From an uncultured Pseudomonadota bacterium (GTDB lineage Bacteria; Bdellovibrionota_B; Oligoflexia; Oligoflexales; CAIYRB01), in contig CAIWTN010000111.1 in assembly GCA_903915625.1 (NCBI GenBank), positions 1 to 55,481 of the forward strand: a stretch of DNA of 55,481 nucleotides, in the 5' to 3' direction. Below the pieces are notes generated by a model, which was not told where the DNA came from, made no database searches, and was given only the letters and a program-made list of their open reading frames with translations. Positions 32,808-43,017 of the stretch are shown here, piece after piece. The position numbers and the translations under genes are program-made. Numbering within the stretch: position 1 is the first letter of the stretch; every line of letters starts with the position of its first letter.

Positions 32808-33659
32808 CTATTTAGGCTTTATCCTTCGGAGGCATGTCAGAGGCAAGTAAACCATAGAATAACCGTCCGTCTGATGGCATTCAATCCTGCCTGTGTCTGG
32901 ATCCTCAGCAGTCCCCTGGTAGGTGTAGCGACACTCTCCCTTAACGATACCCGGCGCAACTGACCCCTTTGGCTGGAAGGCAGATGAGTTCATTTTATGC
33001 GAGCCATGCCATGAAATGGCCCATACCTTTCGGTCTTCAAAACGATTGGGGGGTTCTTGGTTTTTCAAGGATTCACCGTTTTTCCCTACAACAGGGTCGG
33101 GAGCATCTATCGCCGATCCGGCCAGCTCATCTTTATCCGGAAAATCGATAGCCCAAGTCTCACCCGACAACAACGCCACTTCGATGCGGCGACCTGCTGC
33201 TGAATTAAAAGCGCGGCAATCCTTGATGAACTTATAATGAGTAGCAGCTTGATCGGCGCCAATCGGCGACAATACGGCAGCTCTGTAAGGCGTATTCCAA
33301 ACAAGTTCGGTACCAAAGTCTCCCTCTCCTGTAATGACTTCCCAGTGCAGGCGACCCAGTCGATCGAGATCCGTTAGCAGAAAGCTCACTTGAGTCGATT
33401 TACAAATTGTGAGGTCGGGAGTATCCGCATGACGACGCACCGTGAAACATCTGCCGCTCGGCGGATTCACGGTCAAAAATCCTCGCATTAATTGCGGATC
33501 GACTCGCCCCGCATAGTCCCTTACGTCCCGCTCTGATAAGGCTAGTTCAGTCCCTGGTGGCGGCAAAAAATAAGAGCTAAGCTTACGAATCCGCTCCGAG
33601 GCAGGTACCTCGCCGCTGAACATCGCAGTCGCGACTAACATACCGGCCACAAAACTCAT
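32808..33659 (-). CDS. Hypothetical exported protein, 283 residues
   Basis: A signal peptide covers about residues 1-20 (AMFSGEVPASE). The body is soluble and beta-rich with several Cys (five), no recognisable motif. It is translationally coupled to the upstream beta-propeller gene (4-base overlap), so the two probably work together in the periplasm. Stop lies in an AT-rich stretch. Function unknown. Confidence 0.6.
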   Translation of the reverse strand: MSFVAGMLVATAMFSGEVPASERIRKLSSYFLPPPGTELALSERDVRDYAGRVDPQLMRGFLTVNPPSGRCFTVRRHADTPDLTICKSTQVSFLLTDLDRLGRLHWEVITGEGDFGTELVWNTPYRAAVLSPIGADQAATHYKFIKDCRAFNSAAGRRIEVALLSGETWAIDFPDKDELAGSAIDAPDPVVGKNGESLKNQEPPNRFEDRKVWAISWHGSHKMNSSAFQPKGSVAPGIVKGECRYTYQGTAEDPDTGRIECHQTDGYSMVYLPLTCLRRIKPK

Positions 33660-34597
33660 GGCGTCACGTCCATAAGAAAGGCGTCAGTGGTCTTGTCTAT
33701 GGTGTAAATAATGCGGTCAGATTTTGGCTGCCACTGCGGCCACCTCTCATCAGAATACTGCGTAGCATTTAGAAAGGGACCGGCACCTTGCAAGTCGGCT
33801 AAGCGCAAATCGTAGCCGATAATTTTATTGCCAACCATACGCGCTCCGGCAAACACTATTTTCGGCTCATCTGGATGCCAACGGGGATCTCGGCCGTTCG
33901 CAATCAGAGTTGCCGGTTTACCATTCTGACTTAAATAAACACGCCCCTGATTTGTAGCCCACACCACACTATCGCCGGTTGGGGAAATATCAAAGGACTC
34001 GATACCAGAACTATCGTCTTCGATGCGGCGCATAGCAAAGCCTCCTTGAGTTAGCCAGAGCATGCCCTGCTGAGTTGCTAGCCACTTGCCAAGCTCAATA
34101 CGCTGCGCCACTTGCCAACGCGCAAGGCGCTCTCCCGGGAAATAAATTCTTTTTGTCCGAACACCCTTTGGGCTTAGTAATTGAAGTCTCAAATCCCGCG
34201 GGTCAAAGGTCAGAAAGCCGCTAGCCGTAGGCATTTCATCGAGCAACACACTTTGCACAAGGGCACAGTCAAAGGCTTTAACCATCGTTTTCAGATTACC
34301 AATGGCATCGAGGACCTGTTCTCGATAGAAAAGGCGAAAACCGTCCGGTGACCAAACAAAACTGGCACCAACCTGAGCGTCCGTAACTTGGAAAATATTT
34401 TTCGTCTTTAGATCCAGCACCGAAAGGCCAAGGCCATTGTCACCGATGTAGGCCAGAAACCGCCCTTTGGGGTCCATGCGCATTCTGTTTAGTGCATTAT
34501 CAGCGCGGAGCAGTACCGTTGATTTTGCCGCAATCACAGCAAAAGCATCACAGCTAAAAACCGTTAGTAGCCCAACCAGAGCCCAAGAGAAGGACAT
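33656..34597 (-). CDS. Exported beta-propeller-like (TolB-type) protein
   Basis: 313 residues from the ATG at 34597, chosen because a signal peptide follows it (WALVGLLTVFSCDAFA); the open frame extends upstream to 34699. Repeated strands with the TolB/WD40-like patterns 'SPDG.RL.Y', 'D.A..G..', 'WHPDEPKIVFAGARM' and 'DERWPQWQPKSDRIIYT' suggest a six- to seven-bladed propeller used for protein binding. Coupled to the downstream 283-residue protein. Confidence 0.6.
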   Translation of the reverse strand: MSFSWALVGLLTVFSCDAFAVIAAKSTVLLRADNALNRMRMDPKGRFLAYIGDNGLGLSVLDLKTKNIFQVTDAQVGASFVWSPDGFRLFYREQVLDAIGNLKTMVKAFDCALVQSVLLDEMPTASGFLTFDPRDLRLQLLSPKGVRTKRIYFPGERLARWQVAQRIELGKWLATQQGMLWLTQGGFAMRRIEDDSSGIESFDISPTGDSVVWATNQGRVYLSQNGKPATLIANGRDPRWHPDEPKIVFAGARMVGNKIIGYDLRLADLQGAGPFLNATQYSDERWPQWQPKSDRIIYTIDKTTDAFLMDVTP

Positions 34598-34805
34598 TTT
34601 GCTAAGTTCATTTAGGCGCACTTTGGTGCTCCAAGTAACAACGATGGTTTCAGTTTTCGTGATATATTTAAGCGTAGCGAGGCGGTGGCTATAACCCAAT
34701 TATACGCCGAAATTATCCAACAATCTCGGACGCCTCTAAATTATCTCTAAAGTTATTCCAATTTATGCCGAAATATCAAAAGGATCGATCACCGGAGGGT
34801 TCACC

Positions 34806-35160: not shown

Positions 35161-35727
35161 TCAGAAGGCTGTAAAAAGGCGGAGAATACCGTCTAACTCA
35201 TCGAGATCTTTTTTCGTGGGCTTAACGTAACGAGCCGCTAGCCACTTATGTCGGTCGCCGACATAAATAGTGGGCAACTCCGGATTGTGGAACACTTTGT
35301 GGATCTCCGTATTAGCTAGATAGCCACGCTCCAGATTGAATTCTTTCATAAACCCCTCCGCGTCGTCGCGGGTGTCGTGGGTAAAAACATAAACAAAATC
35401 TGCATTTAATCGACGGTATCGGTTCTCAAGACGAATTAATTCCGGCATGAGCTGTTGGCAGGGCTCACACCACGACGCCAGAAACACCACAACGAGCATG
35501 CGGCCTTCAATGGGGTCAACGCGTTCCTGATCGACTAAACCTGGGATTCTAGTGGCACTAAAACCGAGCATCGGCACCCATGATTGCCAAAATTTATGCT
35601 CTGTTTTGTTGGGAGTAGCTGCAGCCGGAGCAGCCTCGTGGTTACCACCACCGGAGTTAGCCAGAGCCAACGGGCAAACAGTAAGAGACAAAAATAAGAG
35701 GACTGAGAGCAGACGTAAAAGCGGCAT
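35161..35727 (-). CDS. Exported TlpA-like thioredoxin
   Basis: 188 residues, signal peptide (VLLFLSLTVCPLALA), Gly/Ala linker, then a thioredoxin-type domain with LASWCEPCQQLMPEL (Cys87, Cys90) and NPELPTIYVGD near the cis-Pro. A periplasmic thiol oxidoreductase; whether reductase or isomerase is unclear. It is a second such protein in the window, outside the ccm operon. Confidence 0.8.
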   Translation of the reverse strand: MPLLRLLSVLLFLSLTVCPLALANSGGGNHEAAPAAATPNKTEHKFWQSWVPMLGFSATRIPGLVDQERVDPIEGRMLVVVFLASWCEPCQQLMPELIRLENRYRRLNADFVYVFTHDTRDDAEGFMKEFNLERGYLANTEIHKVFHNPELPTIYVGDRHKWLAARYVKPTKKDLDELDGILRLFTAF

Positions 35728-35798
35728 CTAGGTCTCGTGTCGCGGGTTGATTGATAATGCTATGATAGCATGAGTGGGTGCACGCGCAGGAGACCGTC

Positions 35799-37043
35799 AT
35801 GACTAAAGAAGAGCTTGCCAAGTTATGGCAGTTTCCGTGGCCAGTCATGGACGTGCTTATCGGAGGCAAGTCCTCGATAGACTTGACTGAATTAAATATT
35901 CAGTCAAATGCCGAGGCCAGTAACTTTCTGCGCAACTATGGGTACGATCCTGAAACCCCCGGCGACCGTCGCCTCATTCACAGCGTCCAGGTGGAGGCGG
36001 TCACTTTCATCGAACAGCAGCTACTACTACCGCGGGAATGGCAACGGGGGATTAGGCCGCCTGATGAGCTTCTAAATTGCGACGATCCATGCAAATTGCT
36101 GCTCTGGGCATCTAGCAAGAGCTCTGAAGATAGATGGCTCCGTCATTGGGCTTGCGCGGTATTGCGTGTCATGCACACGATCGCACATCTAGAGGGGGTC
36201 CATCGGACTATTGATATGCAGGCGGCTCGCGCTCAAATCTTTTCAAGATTCGAACAGCATCTACAGCGCGAATCCGATGGAGATCTTTGGTTTGGTGGTA
36301 AAAATGGCCGCGTGGAATTAGCGCAAGTGGAGTGGAAAGAGGCCAAAAGCCGTAACTCCATCATTCTAAAACTCTTGCATAAACGCGATAACGTCGCTGA
36401 AACAATTTACGACTACGTGGGAATCAGACTAATCACGAAAAGTCTTTGCGACGTAATGCTCGTGGTAAAACTACTCCATAAATACAATATTATTGTCTAT
36501 CCGAACGCCTATCCGTCACGAGCTCGCAATAATCTAATCGACATCGAGCGCTTCCACGAACAAGTCGAGGTACTTCGGCAAGAACTTTTGGCAGGATCGC
36601 TAACTGTAGGCGATTTTAGTCGAAAAATGGCCAACCTAAATATTGAAGCCTCGCCAGTCACGCAGGCCACTGGCAACCCCCATTCGTTGTCATCTTACCG
36701 AGCCATCCAACTTACCGGCCGCCAACTAATTAAAATTCCACATCAGAAGTTAGAATGGTTAACTAAACTGGCCCAGGCGCAGGCGCCTGGGCAGGCCGAG
36801 CCAAAACTAACCACCGTGTTAGCACTCATGAAGGACCTCTTAAAGAACTGGCCGAGCGGAAAAGAAGGACGCTTTGATGCGGCTTTCTTTCCCTTCGAGG
36901 TGCAAATTCTTGATGTCACCTCCCATCAGCACGCTCAATCAGGTGAAGCGAACCATGACCGATATAAGTCTTCACAAATTCGAGCCGCTCGCAAGCGAGT
37001 GCTGTCCCAGGTGCTTGAGTTCTCCAAAGACGGACCTACGTAA
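35799..37043 (+). CDS. RelA/SpoT-like nucleotidyltransferase-domain protein
   Basis: 414 residues from the ATG at 35799 (AGGAG 7 bases upstream; a GTG at 35778 is possible). Residues from about 180 follow the alarmone-synthetase layout: KSRNSIILKLL (Lys183, Ser187), IYDYVGIRLIT (Asp205, Arg210; compare the 'DL.AVRIV' strand), NPHSLSSYRAIQL (Tyr300; compare 'NGYQSLHTTV'), FPFEVQILD (Glu367) and ANHDRYKSSQ (His386, Lys390). The N-terminal ~140 residues show no HD hydrolase or TGS domain. This may correspond to the deltaproteobacterial TIGR04552/TIGR04562-type proteins (from memory). (p)ppGpp synthesis is possible, not shown. Confidence 0.65.
   Translation: MTKEELAKLWQFPWPVMDVLIGGKSSIDLTELNIQSNAEASNFLRNYGYDPETPGDRRLIHSVQVEAVTFIEQQLLLPREWQRGIRPPDELLNCDDPCKLLLWASSKSSEDRWLRHWACAVLRVMHTIAHLEGVHRTIDMQAARAQIFSRFEQHLQRESDGDLWFGGKNGRVELAQVEWKEAKSRNSIILKLLHKRDNVAETIYDYVGIRLITKSLCDVMLVVKLLHKYNIIVYPNAYPSRARNNLIDIERFHEQVEVLRQELLAGSLTVGDFSRKMANLNIEASPVTQATGNPHSLSSYRAIQLTGRQLIKIPHQKLEWLTKLAQAQAPGQAEPKLTTVLALMKDLLKNWPSGKEGRFDAAFFPFEVQILDVTSHQHAQSGEANHDRYKSSQIRAARKRVLSQVLEFSKDGPT
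36772..36791. repeat. Strong GC hairpin inside the RelA/SpoT-like coding region
   Basis: CCCAGGCG-CAGG-CGCCTGGG, 8-bp perfect stem and 4-base loop, lying in the Ala/Gln/Pro linker between the domain's middle and last motifs. Probably incidental to codon choice in a low-complexity linker, but it may slow translation. Confidence 0.35.
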
Positions 37044-37178
37044 AGTCTGGCCGACGACATTGTTCAGAGCCCTCTAGCAAACAAATTGGCAAGGTGCTAA
37101 AGGACGGTCTGCCCTCGGCTGGCAAATTCAGTGTGCGGGTCTATAGCCTATCGACCATCGACAACCGAAGTGAATATT

Positions 37179-38327
37179 ATGATGAAACATATCTATGTCG
37201 ACGCAAATGGAACTTATCCAGTTGCTCCAAAGCATTACGATGACATTGCCGCTAGGCTTAAATTGGCTGATGGCAATCCTTCTTCTATTCATGCTCCGGG
37301 GCGGAATGCGAAAATTGCGCTGGAGGATGCTCGGACAGCCGTTGCAAAATTGATCGGCGCAAACGCTCAGGAGATCATTTTCACCTCGGGAGCTACCGAG
37401 GCCAATAACATGGTGCTGTCAGGCATCGCCTCAACGCACAAAAATGGTCCGCTCCCGAAAATCATAGTTACTGCGGCGGAGCACTCCGCTGTCATAGAAA
37501 CTGCAAAGGCGTTGGCTCAGCGCGGACTCTGTGATCTCGCCATCGCTCCGGTCTTACCTAACGGTGCTGTGGACACAGAAAAGCTGCTGAGCATGGTGAC
37601 TAGTGATACAGCTCTAGTCGCGCTCATCGCCGCTAATAACGAAACAGGGGTACTTAATCCTCTGATGGAACTGATCGGACAGATTAAAAAGCGCAACCCT
37701 TTAACTCACGTACATACAGATGCCGTACAACTTTTAGGGAAGACGGATCTAACTTGGCTTGGCCAGAGTGGCGTTAACAGCGCGGCGTTCTCTGGACACA
37801 AATTAGGCGCCTTCAAAGGCACCGGCGCACTCTTTTTAAAGCGCGGCACTAGGTTACATCCATTTGTCACAGGTGGAGGCCAGGAGCGCGGACGGAGAGC
37901 TGGCACTGAGAACATGCCAGGCATCGTCTCTTTTGGCTTGAGATGTGCGGAGACACTAGGTCAAGAGGTAGCCTTCGCTACGAGAATGCGCCAATTGCGC
38001 GACCTATGGCTCCAGGTCCTCAGCAAGATCCCCGGTGCAGTAGTGCATGGATCGGGTGCCGATAGTCTACCGAATACAGTAAATTTTCATATCGAGGGAA
38101 TTGCCGGAGACGATATTTTACTGAACTTCGATTTAGCAAATATTTATGCTTCCAGCGGCAGTGCCTGCTCTTCTAGTGTCGCCCGGCCAAGTCATGTCTT
38201 GTTGGCCATGGGATATTCCGAATGGATAGCACTTAACTCAGTCCGAATTAGTTTCACGGCTGAAAATGATGCCGACGACATCGCGTTGATGGCACATGTG
38301 CTGCAGCAAGTGATAGAACGGAAATAA
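37179..38327 (+). CDS. Cysteine desulfurase (NifS/IscS-type, class II aminotransferase fold)
   Basis: 382 residues from the ATG at 37179 (GAAGTGA upstream); the open frame reaches a GTG at 37131. The PLP lysine lies in SGHKLGAFKG (Lys208), ATEANNMVL and NNETG are conserved, and SSGSACSSS carries the catalytic Cys330. It removes sulfur from cysteine for iron-sulfur clusters or tRNA thiolation. iscU and iscA are not adjacent. Followed 14 bases later by the ComF-like gene. Confidence 0.92.
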   Translation: MMKHIYVDANGTYPVAPKHYDDIAARLKLADGNPSSIHAPGRNAKIALEDARTAVAKLIGANAQEIIFTSGATEANNMVLSGIASTHKNGPLPKIIVTAAEHSAVIETAKALAQRGLCDLAIAPVLPNGAVDTEKLLSMVTSDTALVALIAANNETGVLNPLMELIGQIKKRNPLTHVHTDAVQLLGKTDLTWLGQSGVNSAAFSGHKLGAFKGTGALFLKRGTRLHPFVTGGGQERGRRAGTENMPGIVSFGLRCAETLGQEVAFATRMRQLRDLWLQVLSKIPGAVVHGSGADSLPNTVNFHIEGIAGDDILLNFDLANIYASSGSACSSSVARPSHVLLAMGYSEWIALNSVRISFTAENDADDIALMAHVLQQVIERK

Positions 38328-38341
38328 AATTTGCGTGAGAT

Positions 38342-39043
38342 ATGCCCATGTGGCTGCGGCGATACTGCATTGCCTGTTATGGCTCGGTGGATTTTGAATC
38401 AGCGATCGCCAACAATCTGCAGCTTTGCGCAGTCTGCCTTGACGAGTTGAGTGAACTCCAACTATTAGGCTGGTCGCCAGCAAATTTTAGCCCTAAATCA
38501 GAAATTACCGATGTCGCCAGTTTGTTGCGCTATCGTGGGGTAGTTCGTGACCTCGTGCTTCGCGCCAAAGTGCGCGGCGACCATAGAGCGTTGGCGCTGC
38601 TTGTTGCGTTGGCAGCCGATCGCAACGAGGCGATGTCTTTAAGCACATGGTGTGATGCGGTCGTAGCCAACCCTTCGAGCCTCTGGGGCAGAATAAGGGG
38701 GCGCCTTGATATCGCCGGAAAAATCGCATCACAACTGGCCAGCATCGCGGGCAAGCCGCTCCTAAATGCCCCCTTGGATCTACATTGGCGCTGGCAAAAG
38801 CATGCGCTCACCGACCGAAAAAAACGCACAGAAATGGACCCTGTCGAGGCAATAGCTGTGAAGTGGTCAAAATATGTCAGCTCCTGCACTTTTCACCAAC
38901 CAATTAAAAAACACGATGGCCTGACGCGTATTCTGTTGGTGGACGATGTTTTGACCACCGGTGGCACCTTGCAACGGACGGCCATAGCACTCTCCAGAGA
39001 TCGACCTGTCATCGTCCGCGGCTTAACTGTGGCGCGGGCTTGA
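38342..39043 (+). CDS. comF: ComF-family phosphoribosyltransferase-like protein
   Basis: 233 residues: N-terminal CIACYG and later LCAVCLDEL form the zinc-finger of ComF; ILLVDDVLTTGGTL is the PRPP-binding loop. DVA..LRYRG follows the family. Members help DNA uptake in competent bacteria but are also found in non-competent species. It sits between a cysteine desulfurase and mutS. Comparatively divergent in the middle region. Confidence 0.82.
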   Translation: MPMWLRRYCIACYGSVDFESAIANNLQLCAVCLDELSELQLLGWSPANFSPKSEITDVASLLRYRGVVRDLVLRAKVRGDHRALALLVALAADRNEAMSLSTWCDAVVANPSSLWGRIRGRLDIAGKIASQLASIAGKPLLNAPLDLHWRWQKHALTDRKKRTEMDPVEAIAVKWSKYVSSCTFHQPIKKHDGLTRILLVDDVLTTGGTLQRTAIALSRDRPVIVRGLTVARA

Positions 39044-41988: not shown

Positions 41989-42017
41989 TTGTATTTTCGG
42001 ATTCCTGTTAATATACT
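41989..42017 (+). promoter_or_regulatory. Sigma70-type promoter of the DksA-like gene
   Basis: TTGTAT (41989-41994) and TATACT (42012-42017) with a 17-base spacer. Transcription would start near 42024, leaving a leader of about 75 bases containing an imperfect GGGAACC/GGGTCCC hairpin. Confidence 0.6.
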
Positions 42018-42099
42018 TGCCGCTTATCATCGATCCAGCATGCGAGTGAATCATGGGAACCGGGAAAATCGGGTCCCCCCCGAGCAAGAGGATGAATCG

Positions 42100-43017
42100 A
42101 TGACGCAACGAACTTCCACAAGCTTGAGCGGATGCTCCGTCAAAGCTTTTGCCGTCAAAAAGGCTGCTATGAAAAAAAGCATCAAACCGCAAAAAAAAGC
42201 TGTAACTCCCAGCAAGGCACCAGCAAAAAAACCAGTGGCCGTTAAAAAGGTCGTCGAAACAAAAAGCAAGCCTTCGGCGACTAAAAGCTCGACCGAAAAG
42301 AAAGCAGCACCAGTGAGCACCAACAAGCCGACTCCTTCCGCAGCAAAAAAGGTCGCTCCAGCGCCGGCAAAGAAAGAAATAGCAAAAAAGTCGGTCTCGA
42401 CTCAGCCAGCGCCTAGCAAAACTGGTGCGAAAAAAGAAATCGAAGAAAAGGTCACACGCGGAACCTCTGTACCGAGCAAAAAAACCGATTCAGCACTAAG
42501 TCGGACAGGTGCTGTCTCCAAATCGGCGGAGCCTGTTAAAGCGTCATCTCTGCCGATCAAAGTCGAACCTAAGATTATCGAGGTACGCCAACCCGAGATC
42601 GTCCCACGCTCACCGGACGAAACGCTATTCTCGGCCGAGGAGCTCGAGACATTTCGGGTGCTGCTAATCAGCGAGCGCAGCAAGATCTTGCAAAAAGCTC
42701 GGCGTACGATGGAAGAAGGAAATATCCAGATCGATAAAAACGAGATGATGGATGAAGTTGACCAAGCTTCGGCAATGGTAGAACAAAATCTAACGTTCCG
42801 TTTGTTAGATCGTGATCGCAAGCTACTGAGCGAAATTGATCATGCTCTGGCAAAGATCGACAGCGGTGATTTCGGCTATTGCGAGGGAACGGGTGAGCCG
42901 ATTCCAAAAAGGCGTCTTGAATTGCGCCCTTGGTGTCGTCATAGCGTTAAGTACAAAGAAAAACTTGAGCGCATGAAAAAATCAGGCCGTGGTGTCGTCG
43001 ACGAAGACGAAGTCTAA
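42100..43017 (+). CDS. DksA-like protein with long Lys/Ala/Pro-rich N-terminus
   Basis: 305 residues from the ATG at 42100 (AGAGGA upstream; the frame is open from 41989, and an ATG at 42169 also has AAAAGG). Residues 20-180 are Lys/Ala/Pro/Ser repeats like histone H1 tails. The C-terminus (LISERSKILQKARRTME, DEVDQASAMVEQNL, DFGYCEGTGEPIPKRRLE) is the DksA/TraR coiled coil and zinc-finger fold, but of the four zinc cysteines only the first is in place. DksA works on RNA polymerase with ppGpp; the basic tail suggests nucleic-acid contact. The protein is much longer than classical DksA (~150). Confidence 0.8.
   Translation: MTQRTSTSLSGCSVKAFAVKKAAMKKSIKPQKKAVTPSKAPAKKPVAVKKVVETKSKPSATKSSTEKKAAPVSTNKPTPSAAKKVAPAPAKKEIAKKSVSTQPAPSKTGAKKEIEEKVTRGTSVPSKKTDSALSRTGAVSKSAEPVKASSLPIKVEPKIIEVRQPEIVPRSPDETLFSAEELETFRVLLISERSKILQKARRTMEEGNIQIDKNEMMDEVDQASAMVEQNLTFRLLDRDRKLLSEIDHALAKIDSGDFGYCEGTGEPIPKRRLELRPWCRHSVKYKEKLERMKKSGRGVVDEDEV

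Follow-up and report, generated by a model that had tools for sequence, protein, structure and literature searches.

Gene and family assignment

The window, by which the whole analysed stretch of 55,481 nucleotides is meant, contains an open reading frame of 414 amino acids with an ATG start at 35799-37043 of the plus strand; the reverse complement of the same segment is full of stops. A Shine-Dalgarno-like GCAGGAG favours ATG 35799 as the start over the upstream GTG at 35778. The features at the locus, apart from those within the coding sequence, are as follows:

35161-35727, minus strand: divergent gene for a TlpA/thioredoxin-like protein (Pfam Thioredoxin_8), which shares a 71-bp intergenic region with the 35799-37043 gene
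35786-35792, plus strand: Shine-Dalgarno-like GCAGGAG, 6 nt 5' of ATG 35799
35799-37043, plus strand: TIGR04552/TIGR04562 family coding sequence, 414 aa, predicted RSH synthetase fold (open reading frame, NCBIfam and Pfam matches over cut-off, AlphaFold2 and Foldseek)
37131-38327, plus strand: downstream class V aminotransferase/cysteine desulfurase-like gene (Pfam Aminotran_5)
38342-39043, downstream: ComF-like gene, with a phosphoribosyltransferase match under the Pfam cut-off

The 414-aa protein passes the curated cut-offs of both NCBIfam sister models, TIGR04562 (E 4e-101, 338.7 bits; cut-off, 140 bits) and TIGR04552 (E 2e-97, 326.4 bits; cut-off, 125 bits), and is a full-length member of the family, from which it differs in neither length nor architecture. 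Both models are named merely "TIGR04552 family protein" with no function attached to either, and no functional studies of the family were found in the open-access literature searched. Over the whole protein, the Pfam model RelA_SpoT (PF04607) reaches 34.3 bits, against a gathering cut-off of 27, while the single best stretch alone scored 23.8 bits in the genome scan; in some homologues the score falls slightly under the cut-off. SYNTH is the sole recognised domain, preceded by an extra, unrecognised N-domain; no HD, TGS or ACT domain was detected in the 414-aa protein, and the chain stops after SYNTH. The original prediction, made from the letters of the sequence, of a divergent RelA/SpoT-like synthetase lacking hydrolase and TGS domains is thereby borne out, and the product is an HD-less second member of the RelA/SpoT fold beside the ordinary Rel. 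The 2011 survey of RSH proteins distinguishes 30 subgroups, among them bdRel of beta/delta-proteobacteria and the unplaced divRel (PMC3153485).

Predicted fold and N-terminal domain

The AlphaFold2 model, built from a 61-sequence alignment, has a mean pLDDT of 89.7 and a pTM of 0.83. In a Foldseek search against PDB, the top ranks were occupied exclusively by RSH proteins, with RelP, RelQ and other small synthetases followed by Rel, and the best probability was 1.00. TM-scores do not exceed 0.28 by query and 0.53 by target; these modest values would be explained by the N-domain and the two insertions described below. Judging from the model, an RSH fold is almost certain. Thus, the motif order that had raised the suspicion of a true RSH fold is not a chance match, given that TIGR04562, TIGR04552 and Pfam all score over their cut-offs and that the proposed structural check returned RelP/RelQ.

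The protein shares with RelP/RelQ (SAS2/SAS1) a SYNTH fold without HD or TGS, the catalytic Asp, Glu and Lys, and the stacking Tyr. Unlike these synthetases of about 200 aa, it is 414 aa long, adds a helical N-domain and two insertions, one of them in the G-loop, and does not keep the guanine-contact residues. With long RSH proteins (Rel, RelA, SpoT), one of which is held by the same genomes, it has the SYNTH core motifs in common, but it lacks HD, TGS and ACT. The part that precedes SYNTH is as follows:

35799-36266, plus strand: all-helical N-domain, residues 1-156, not HD (pLDDT 81.9 when modelled alone in AlphaFold2)

That the N-terminal half is unlike SpoT, as had been noted earlier, holds both by profile and by fold. 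A degenerate HD domain was considered for this half and rejected, since hhalign against the HD domain of Rel gave probabilities of 0.1-0.2, no HD motif is present and no fold match was obtained. Foldseek against PDB revealed no fold below E 1 for the N-domain (best E 1.3, probability 0.09), which is regarded as new. Its near-invariant residues are G48, P88, D96, W117, C119, H126, H130, Q146 and R150. Among these, C119, H126 and H130 are placed on one helix with the spacing i, i+7, i+11, an arrangement that would be compatible with the sensing of a metal, redox state or ligand.

Catalytic motifs and conservation

The ordered motifs named in the original prediction (K183-SRN-S187, D205-YVGIR, N293-PHSLSSY300R, F366-E367-VQI and H386-DRYK) are all found at their places. 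Those outside the G-loop correspond to the following features:

36345-36383, plus strand: motif 1, K183-SRN-S187-IIL-K191-LLHK, putative ATP/pyrophosphate donor site (RelSeq K243..K251; alignment to RelSeq 1vj7 and YwaC 6fgk)
36411-36428, plus strand: motif 2, D205-YVGI-R210, with the putative Mg-binding Asp (RelSeq D264; 61/61) and adenine-sandwich Arg (RelSeq R269; 60/61), from profile alignment
36888-36905, plus strand: FPFE367VQ369, with the putative catalytic Glu (RelSeq E323; E367 and Q369, 61/61), from alignment to RelSeq residues 321-348
36942-36968, plus strand: G382-EANHDR-Y389-K390, counterpart of RSH G.AAHW.YK (Y389, 61/61; K390, 60/61)

A profile search of PDB sequences, with the numbering counted from the printed alignment, placed K191, D205, R210 and E367 on RelSeq K251, D264, R269 and E323, respectively. 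The substitutions D264G and E323Q abolish the synthetase activity of RelSeq (PMC13299517), and R269 is one of the two Arg residues that sandwich the adenine of ATP (PMC7983052). The other, RelSeq R241, is not kept in the product of 35799-37043, where K180 lies one residue off. Conservation was assessed among 61 divergent homologues with identity down to 31%, in all of which K183, S187, K191, H194, K195, D205, G208, R241, N244, N293, Q304, T306, E367, Q369 and Y389 are invariant. The fold match and the profile alignment to RelSeq, along with this invariance, support Asp205 and Glu367 as the catalytic pair, as had been proposed.

The dN/dS ratio of the window gene against a near relative is 0.088, compared with 0.086 for the neighbouring NifS-like gene and 0.089 for MutS; purifying selection on the TIGR04552 gene is as strong as on MutS. 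The earlier view that activity could equally be lost does not stand against this level of selection and the invariant catalytic positions. A pseudoenzyme that retains the fold in a binding or sensing role would fit the divergence from SpoT, the replacement of one ATP-site Arg and the insertions near the active site. Such a protein would have no need to keep K183, K191, D205, E367, Q369 and Y389 in 61/61 homologues, together with an aromatic residue at position 300 in 61/61, and we regard this reading as quite improbable. Loss of activity is unlikely because the catalytic residues are invariant (61/61), dN/dS is 0.09 and, as described below, distances track those of canonical Rel. An active product is, on these sequence grounds, very probable.

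G-loop, insertions and acceptor site

The anticipated insertions between the motifs proved to be two, at residues 248-290 and 315-358. The region is made up of the following features:

36513-36536, plus strand: PSRARNNL, counterpart of Rel PGRFKDYI at the base of the G-loop (insert-free profile alignment; R241 and N244 invariant, R243 60/61)
36540-36668, plus strand: insertion 1, residues 248-290, a helical hairpin of 34-48 aa within the G-loop (AlphaFold2 secondary structure)
36669-36722, plus strand: G-loop strand N293-PHSLSS-Y300-RAI-Q304-L-T306-G-R308, with Y300 as the stacking aromatic residue (RelSeq Y308; N293, Q304 and T306, 61/61)
36741-36872, plus strand: insertion 2, residues 315-358, 9-47 aa long, within the hairpin ahead of the catalytic Glu strand (AlphaFold2, alignment)

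Neither insertion is conserved in sequence: none of the 43 positions of insertion 1 reaches 95% identity, and no position of insertion 2, which shrinks to 9 residues in the shortest case, does so either. Uncut, the protein gave only weak and local hhalign matches, confined to the C-terminal motif against Rel and to the motif 1-2 region against SAS. With both inserts cut out, the core aligned end to end with the SYNTH domain of the genomes' own Rel at E 3.5e-5, a score that comes from the C-terminal motif, as a permuted control gave the same score. In this insert-free alignment, PSRARNNL falls near PGRFKDYI (a match based on the pattern P.R.[KR][DN]), YRAIQLT on YQSLHTT and FEVQI on EIQIR, and by this placement insertion 1 is part of the G-loop, in which the base of the acceptor is bound.

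Residue 300 is Tyr in 57 and Phe in four homologues. The guanine contacts of RelSeq, K305/N306, are without a conserved counterpart, with residues 297 and 298 varying (S/A/G and K/S/E/Q). The residues by which guanine-specific (p)ppGpp synthetases are recognised (K305/N306 plus R241 in RelSeq) are therefore not those of the 35799-37043 product. This raises the alternative of an active RSH-fold pyrophosphokinase that acts on an acceptor other than GDP/GTP, e.g., an adenosine nucleotide, yielding (p)ppApp, or another 3'-OH, and that makes a housekeeping signal apart from (p)ppGpp. The donor-site residues are kept while the guanine contacts are not, and a helical insertion sits in the G-loop, as such an enzyme might have it. 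Nevertheless, the stacking Tyr is kept, nothing points positively to another acceptor, such loops are hard to read from sequence, and the (p)ppApp synthetases described so far are mostly toxins. We consider this alternative unlikely, and GDP/GTP the more probable acceptor.

Distribution and inheritance

Of 58 genomes from the window's own phylum, 44 (46 at E 0.001) have the TIGR04552 gene over the cut-off, as do 125 (126 at E 0.001) of 144 from the Bdellovibrio-containing phylum; among the latter are genomes whose loci bear the titles Bdellovibrionales and Bacteriovoracaceae. Nearly all carriers have one copy, and the absences gather in small genomes. Among the sampled Acidobacteriota, 16 of 199 genomes were over the cut-off, and the fetched loci carrying the gene are largely titled Holophagaceae or Geothrix; in 14 well-known control genomes the gene was not found. 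Across 23 genomes, its pairwise distances parallel the distances between the canonical Rel proteins (Mantel r 0.91, with 0 of 2000 permutations as high). The TIGR04552 gene is a vertically inherited chromosomal core gene of Bdellovibrionota-type bacteria. On the "Eremiobacterota" contig of locus L065, third-codon-position G+C falls sharply at the TIGR04552 gene, and the contig may be a chimaera.

No match to the family was found on plasmids and no relatives among viral contigs, with nothing below E 0.001 in BFVD. Carriage as phage or plasmid cargo was accordingly rejected, the sole phage record, MW495066, seeming to be a mislabelled bacterial contig. The segment in question (MW495066.1, 113531-134622, "Microcystis phage MaAM05") carries secDF, glyS, mtgA, acpS and engB along with a TIGR04562 gene and looks Bdellovibrionota-like.

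These data also bear on whether the protein could be a toxSAS-type toxin or defence effector (a tRNA pyrophosphokinase or (pp)pApp synthetase) under antitoxin control. It has the SYNTH fold in common with toxSAS proteins (FaRel2, CapRel), and CapRel (7ztb) does appear in the Foldseek list, but far down. Against this stand the lack of a match in PADLOC and PHROG as well as on plasmids, a lone "phage" match that seems to be a bacterial contig, and a mostly single-copy, vertical rather than mobile or patchy inheritance. Unlike toxSAS genes, the TIGR04552 gene belongs to the chromosomal core and has neither an antitoxin nor a mobile setting; a conserved small antitoxin-like neighbour is absent from the fetched loci, except for a STAS gene in one lineage. 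A toxin role is thus very improbable.

A long RSH was also present in 16/16 genomes examined, and in the window genome's own Rel the HD motif LHD.VEDT is intact, so that a hydrolase for a ppGpp-type product would be at hand. The same canonical Rel, which is already expected to supply (p)ppGpp, can be taken as favouring a different acceptor for the second enzyme. In Geothrix oryzisoli (loci L168 and L169), two more RelA_SpoT-domain proteins were seen besides Rel and the TIGR04552 protein.

Gene neighbourhood

The original prediction had drawn attention to a cysteine desulfurase, ComF and a DksA-like protein nearby; their positions are right, but they are not partners conserved across relatives. 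The desulfurase is the only one of the three that recurs beyond the genus, and adjoins the TIGR04552 gene in a minority of relatives, whereas the linkage of ComF, DksA and also MutS to it is limited to the one or two closest loci. DksA and ComF were therefore rejected as functional partners, their linkage being confined to the genus. The DksA-like protein (41989-43017) has a long Lys/Ala/Pro-rich N-terminal extension, and its zinc-finger region reads CEGT...SVKY, with most of the four Cys apparently missing.

The search for co-conserved neighbours that had been suggested led elsewhere. No neighbour is more constant in Oligoflexales than the thioredoxin-like gene, which tblastn placed immediately 5' of the TIGR04552 gene, in the opposite orientation, in 26 of the 80 fetched loci. 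Further upstream (32808-34699) lie two conserved genes without annotation or Pfam match, one of them TolB/WD40-like by eye; in about 20 Oligoflexales-type loci they are again close to the TIGR04552 gene. A perfect palindrome, ATGCTATGATAGCAT, is present at 35757-35771 and is unique in the genome, but the nearest relative has it in disrupted form, for which reason it was not accepted as an operator.

Each of the 31 Holophagae-type loci has, next after the TIGR04552 gene, a gene for a STAS protein and then one whose product joins a response regulator to a SpoIIE phosphatase (the pair is exemplified by locus L086:9146-10680). The TIGR04552 and STAS genes share a 4-bp ATGA overlap in most of these loci, and the STAS proteins are 88-100% identical to the query copy. 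Since longest-ORF gene calls are unreliable in the high-GC Holophagae, tblastn with identified neighbours was used instead. This gene order represents a candidate partner-switching operon and the best functional lead, although in one lineage only, and suggests that a nucleotide signal is tied to a partner-switching module in Holophagae. Linked partner-switching genes of its own would also suit an enzyme with an acceptor other than GDP/GTP.

Phospholipid-synthesis neighbours differ by lineage: a PlsC-like acyltransferase gene lies 3' of the TIGR04552 gene in loci L152-L156, with a 4-bp overlap in L152, and in loci L150, L151, L160 and L161 the TIGR04552 gene is divergent to pgpA and near recA.

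Proposed function

On the combined evidence, the product of 35799-37043 is probably an active RSH-fold pyrophosphokinase with GDP/GTP as the most likely acceptor, encoded by a core gene beside a bifunctional Rel. It would transfer pyrophosphate from ATP to the 3'-OH of the acceptor nucleotide, giving a (p)ppGpp-type alarmone; catalysis, donor and guanosine acceptor are all deduced. (p)ppGpp itself is the product that we favour, with similar reserve. The product could be removed by the HD domain of the coexisting bifunctional Rel, while the helical N-domain (C119, H126, H130), for which a sensory role is conjectured, and the variable G-loop insertion would probably set timing and substrate.

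A bolder proposal is that the signal made by the TIGR04552 family is 3'-pyrophosphorylated but distinct from (p)ppGpp, that it is under the control of a new kind of N-terminal sensor and that in Holophagae it feeds the STAS/SpoIIE cascade directly. This would amount to a second, separate alarmone system throughout Bdellovibrionota; we hold it to be rather unlikely.

A core, strongly selected second RSH-fold enzyme would be an unaccounted source of a stress nucleotide in a phylum with predators. The TIGR04552 enzyme would offer a clean test of whether (p)ppGpp or another product arises from a SYNTH fold whose G-loop has been rebuilt, as well as of a link between such a nucleotide and partner switching. 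Where the open-access literature searched touches on alarmone control in predatory bacteria, only ppGpp and DksA are named.

Within the open-access literature, the only paper that names the TIGR04552 family does so in a mutation table (PMC9888234). In that study, Bdellovibrio sp. NC01 was subjected to experimental evolution, and all six evolved lines outlived the ancestor under starvation, five of them significantly; a one-base deletion in the TIGR04552 homologue was found at high frequency in one of the six (PMC9888234). Since all six lines improved, the deletion indicates no more than that the TIGR04552 gene is probably dispensable in NC01 under those conditions.
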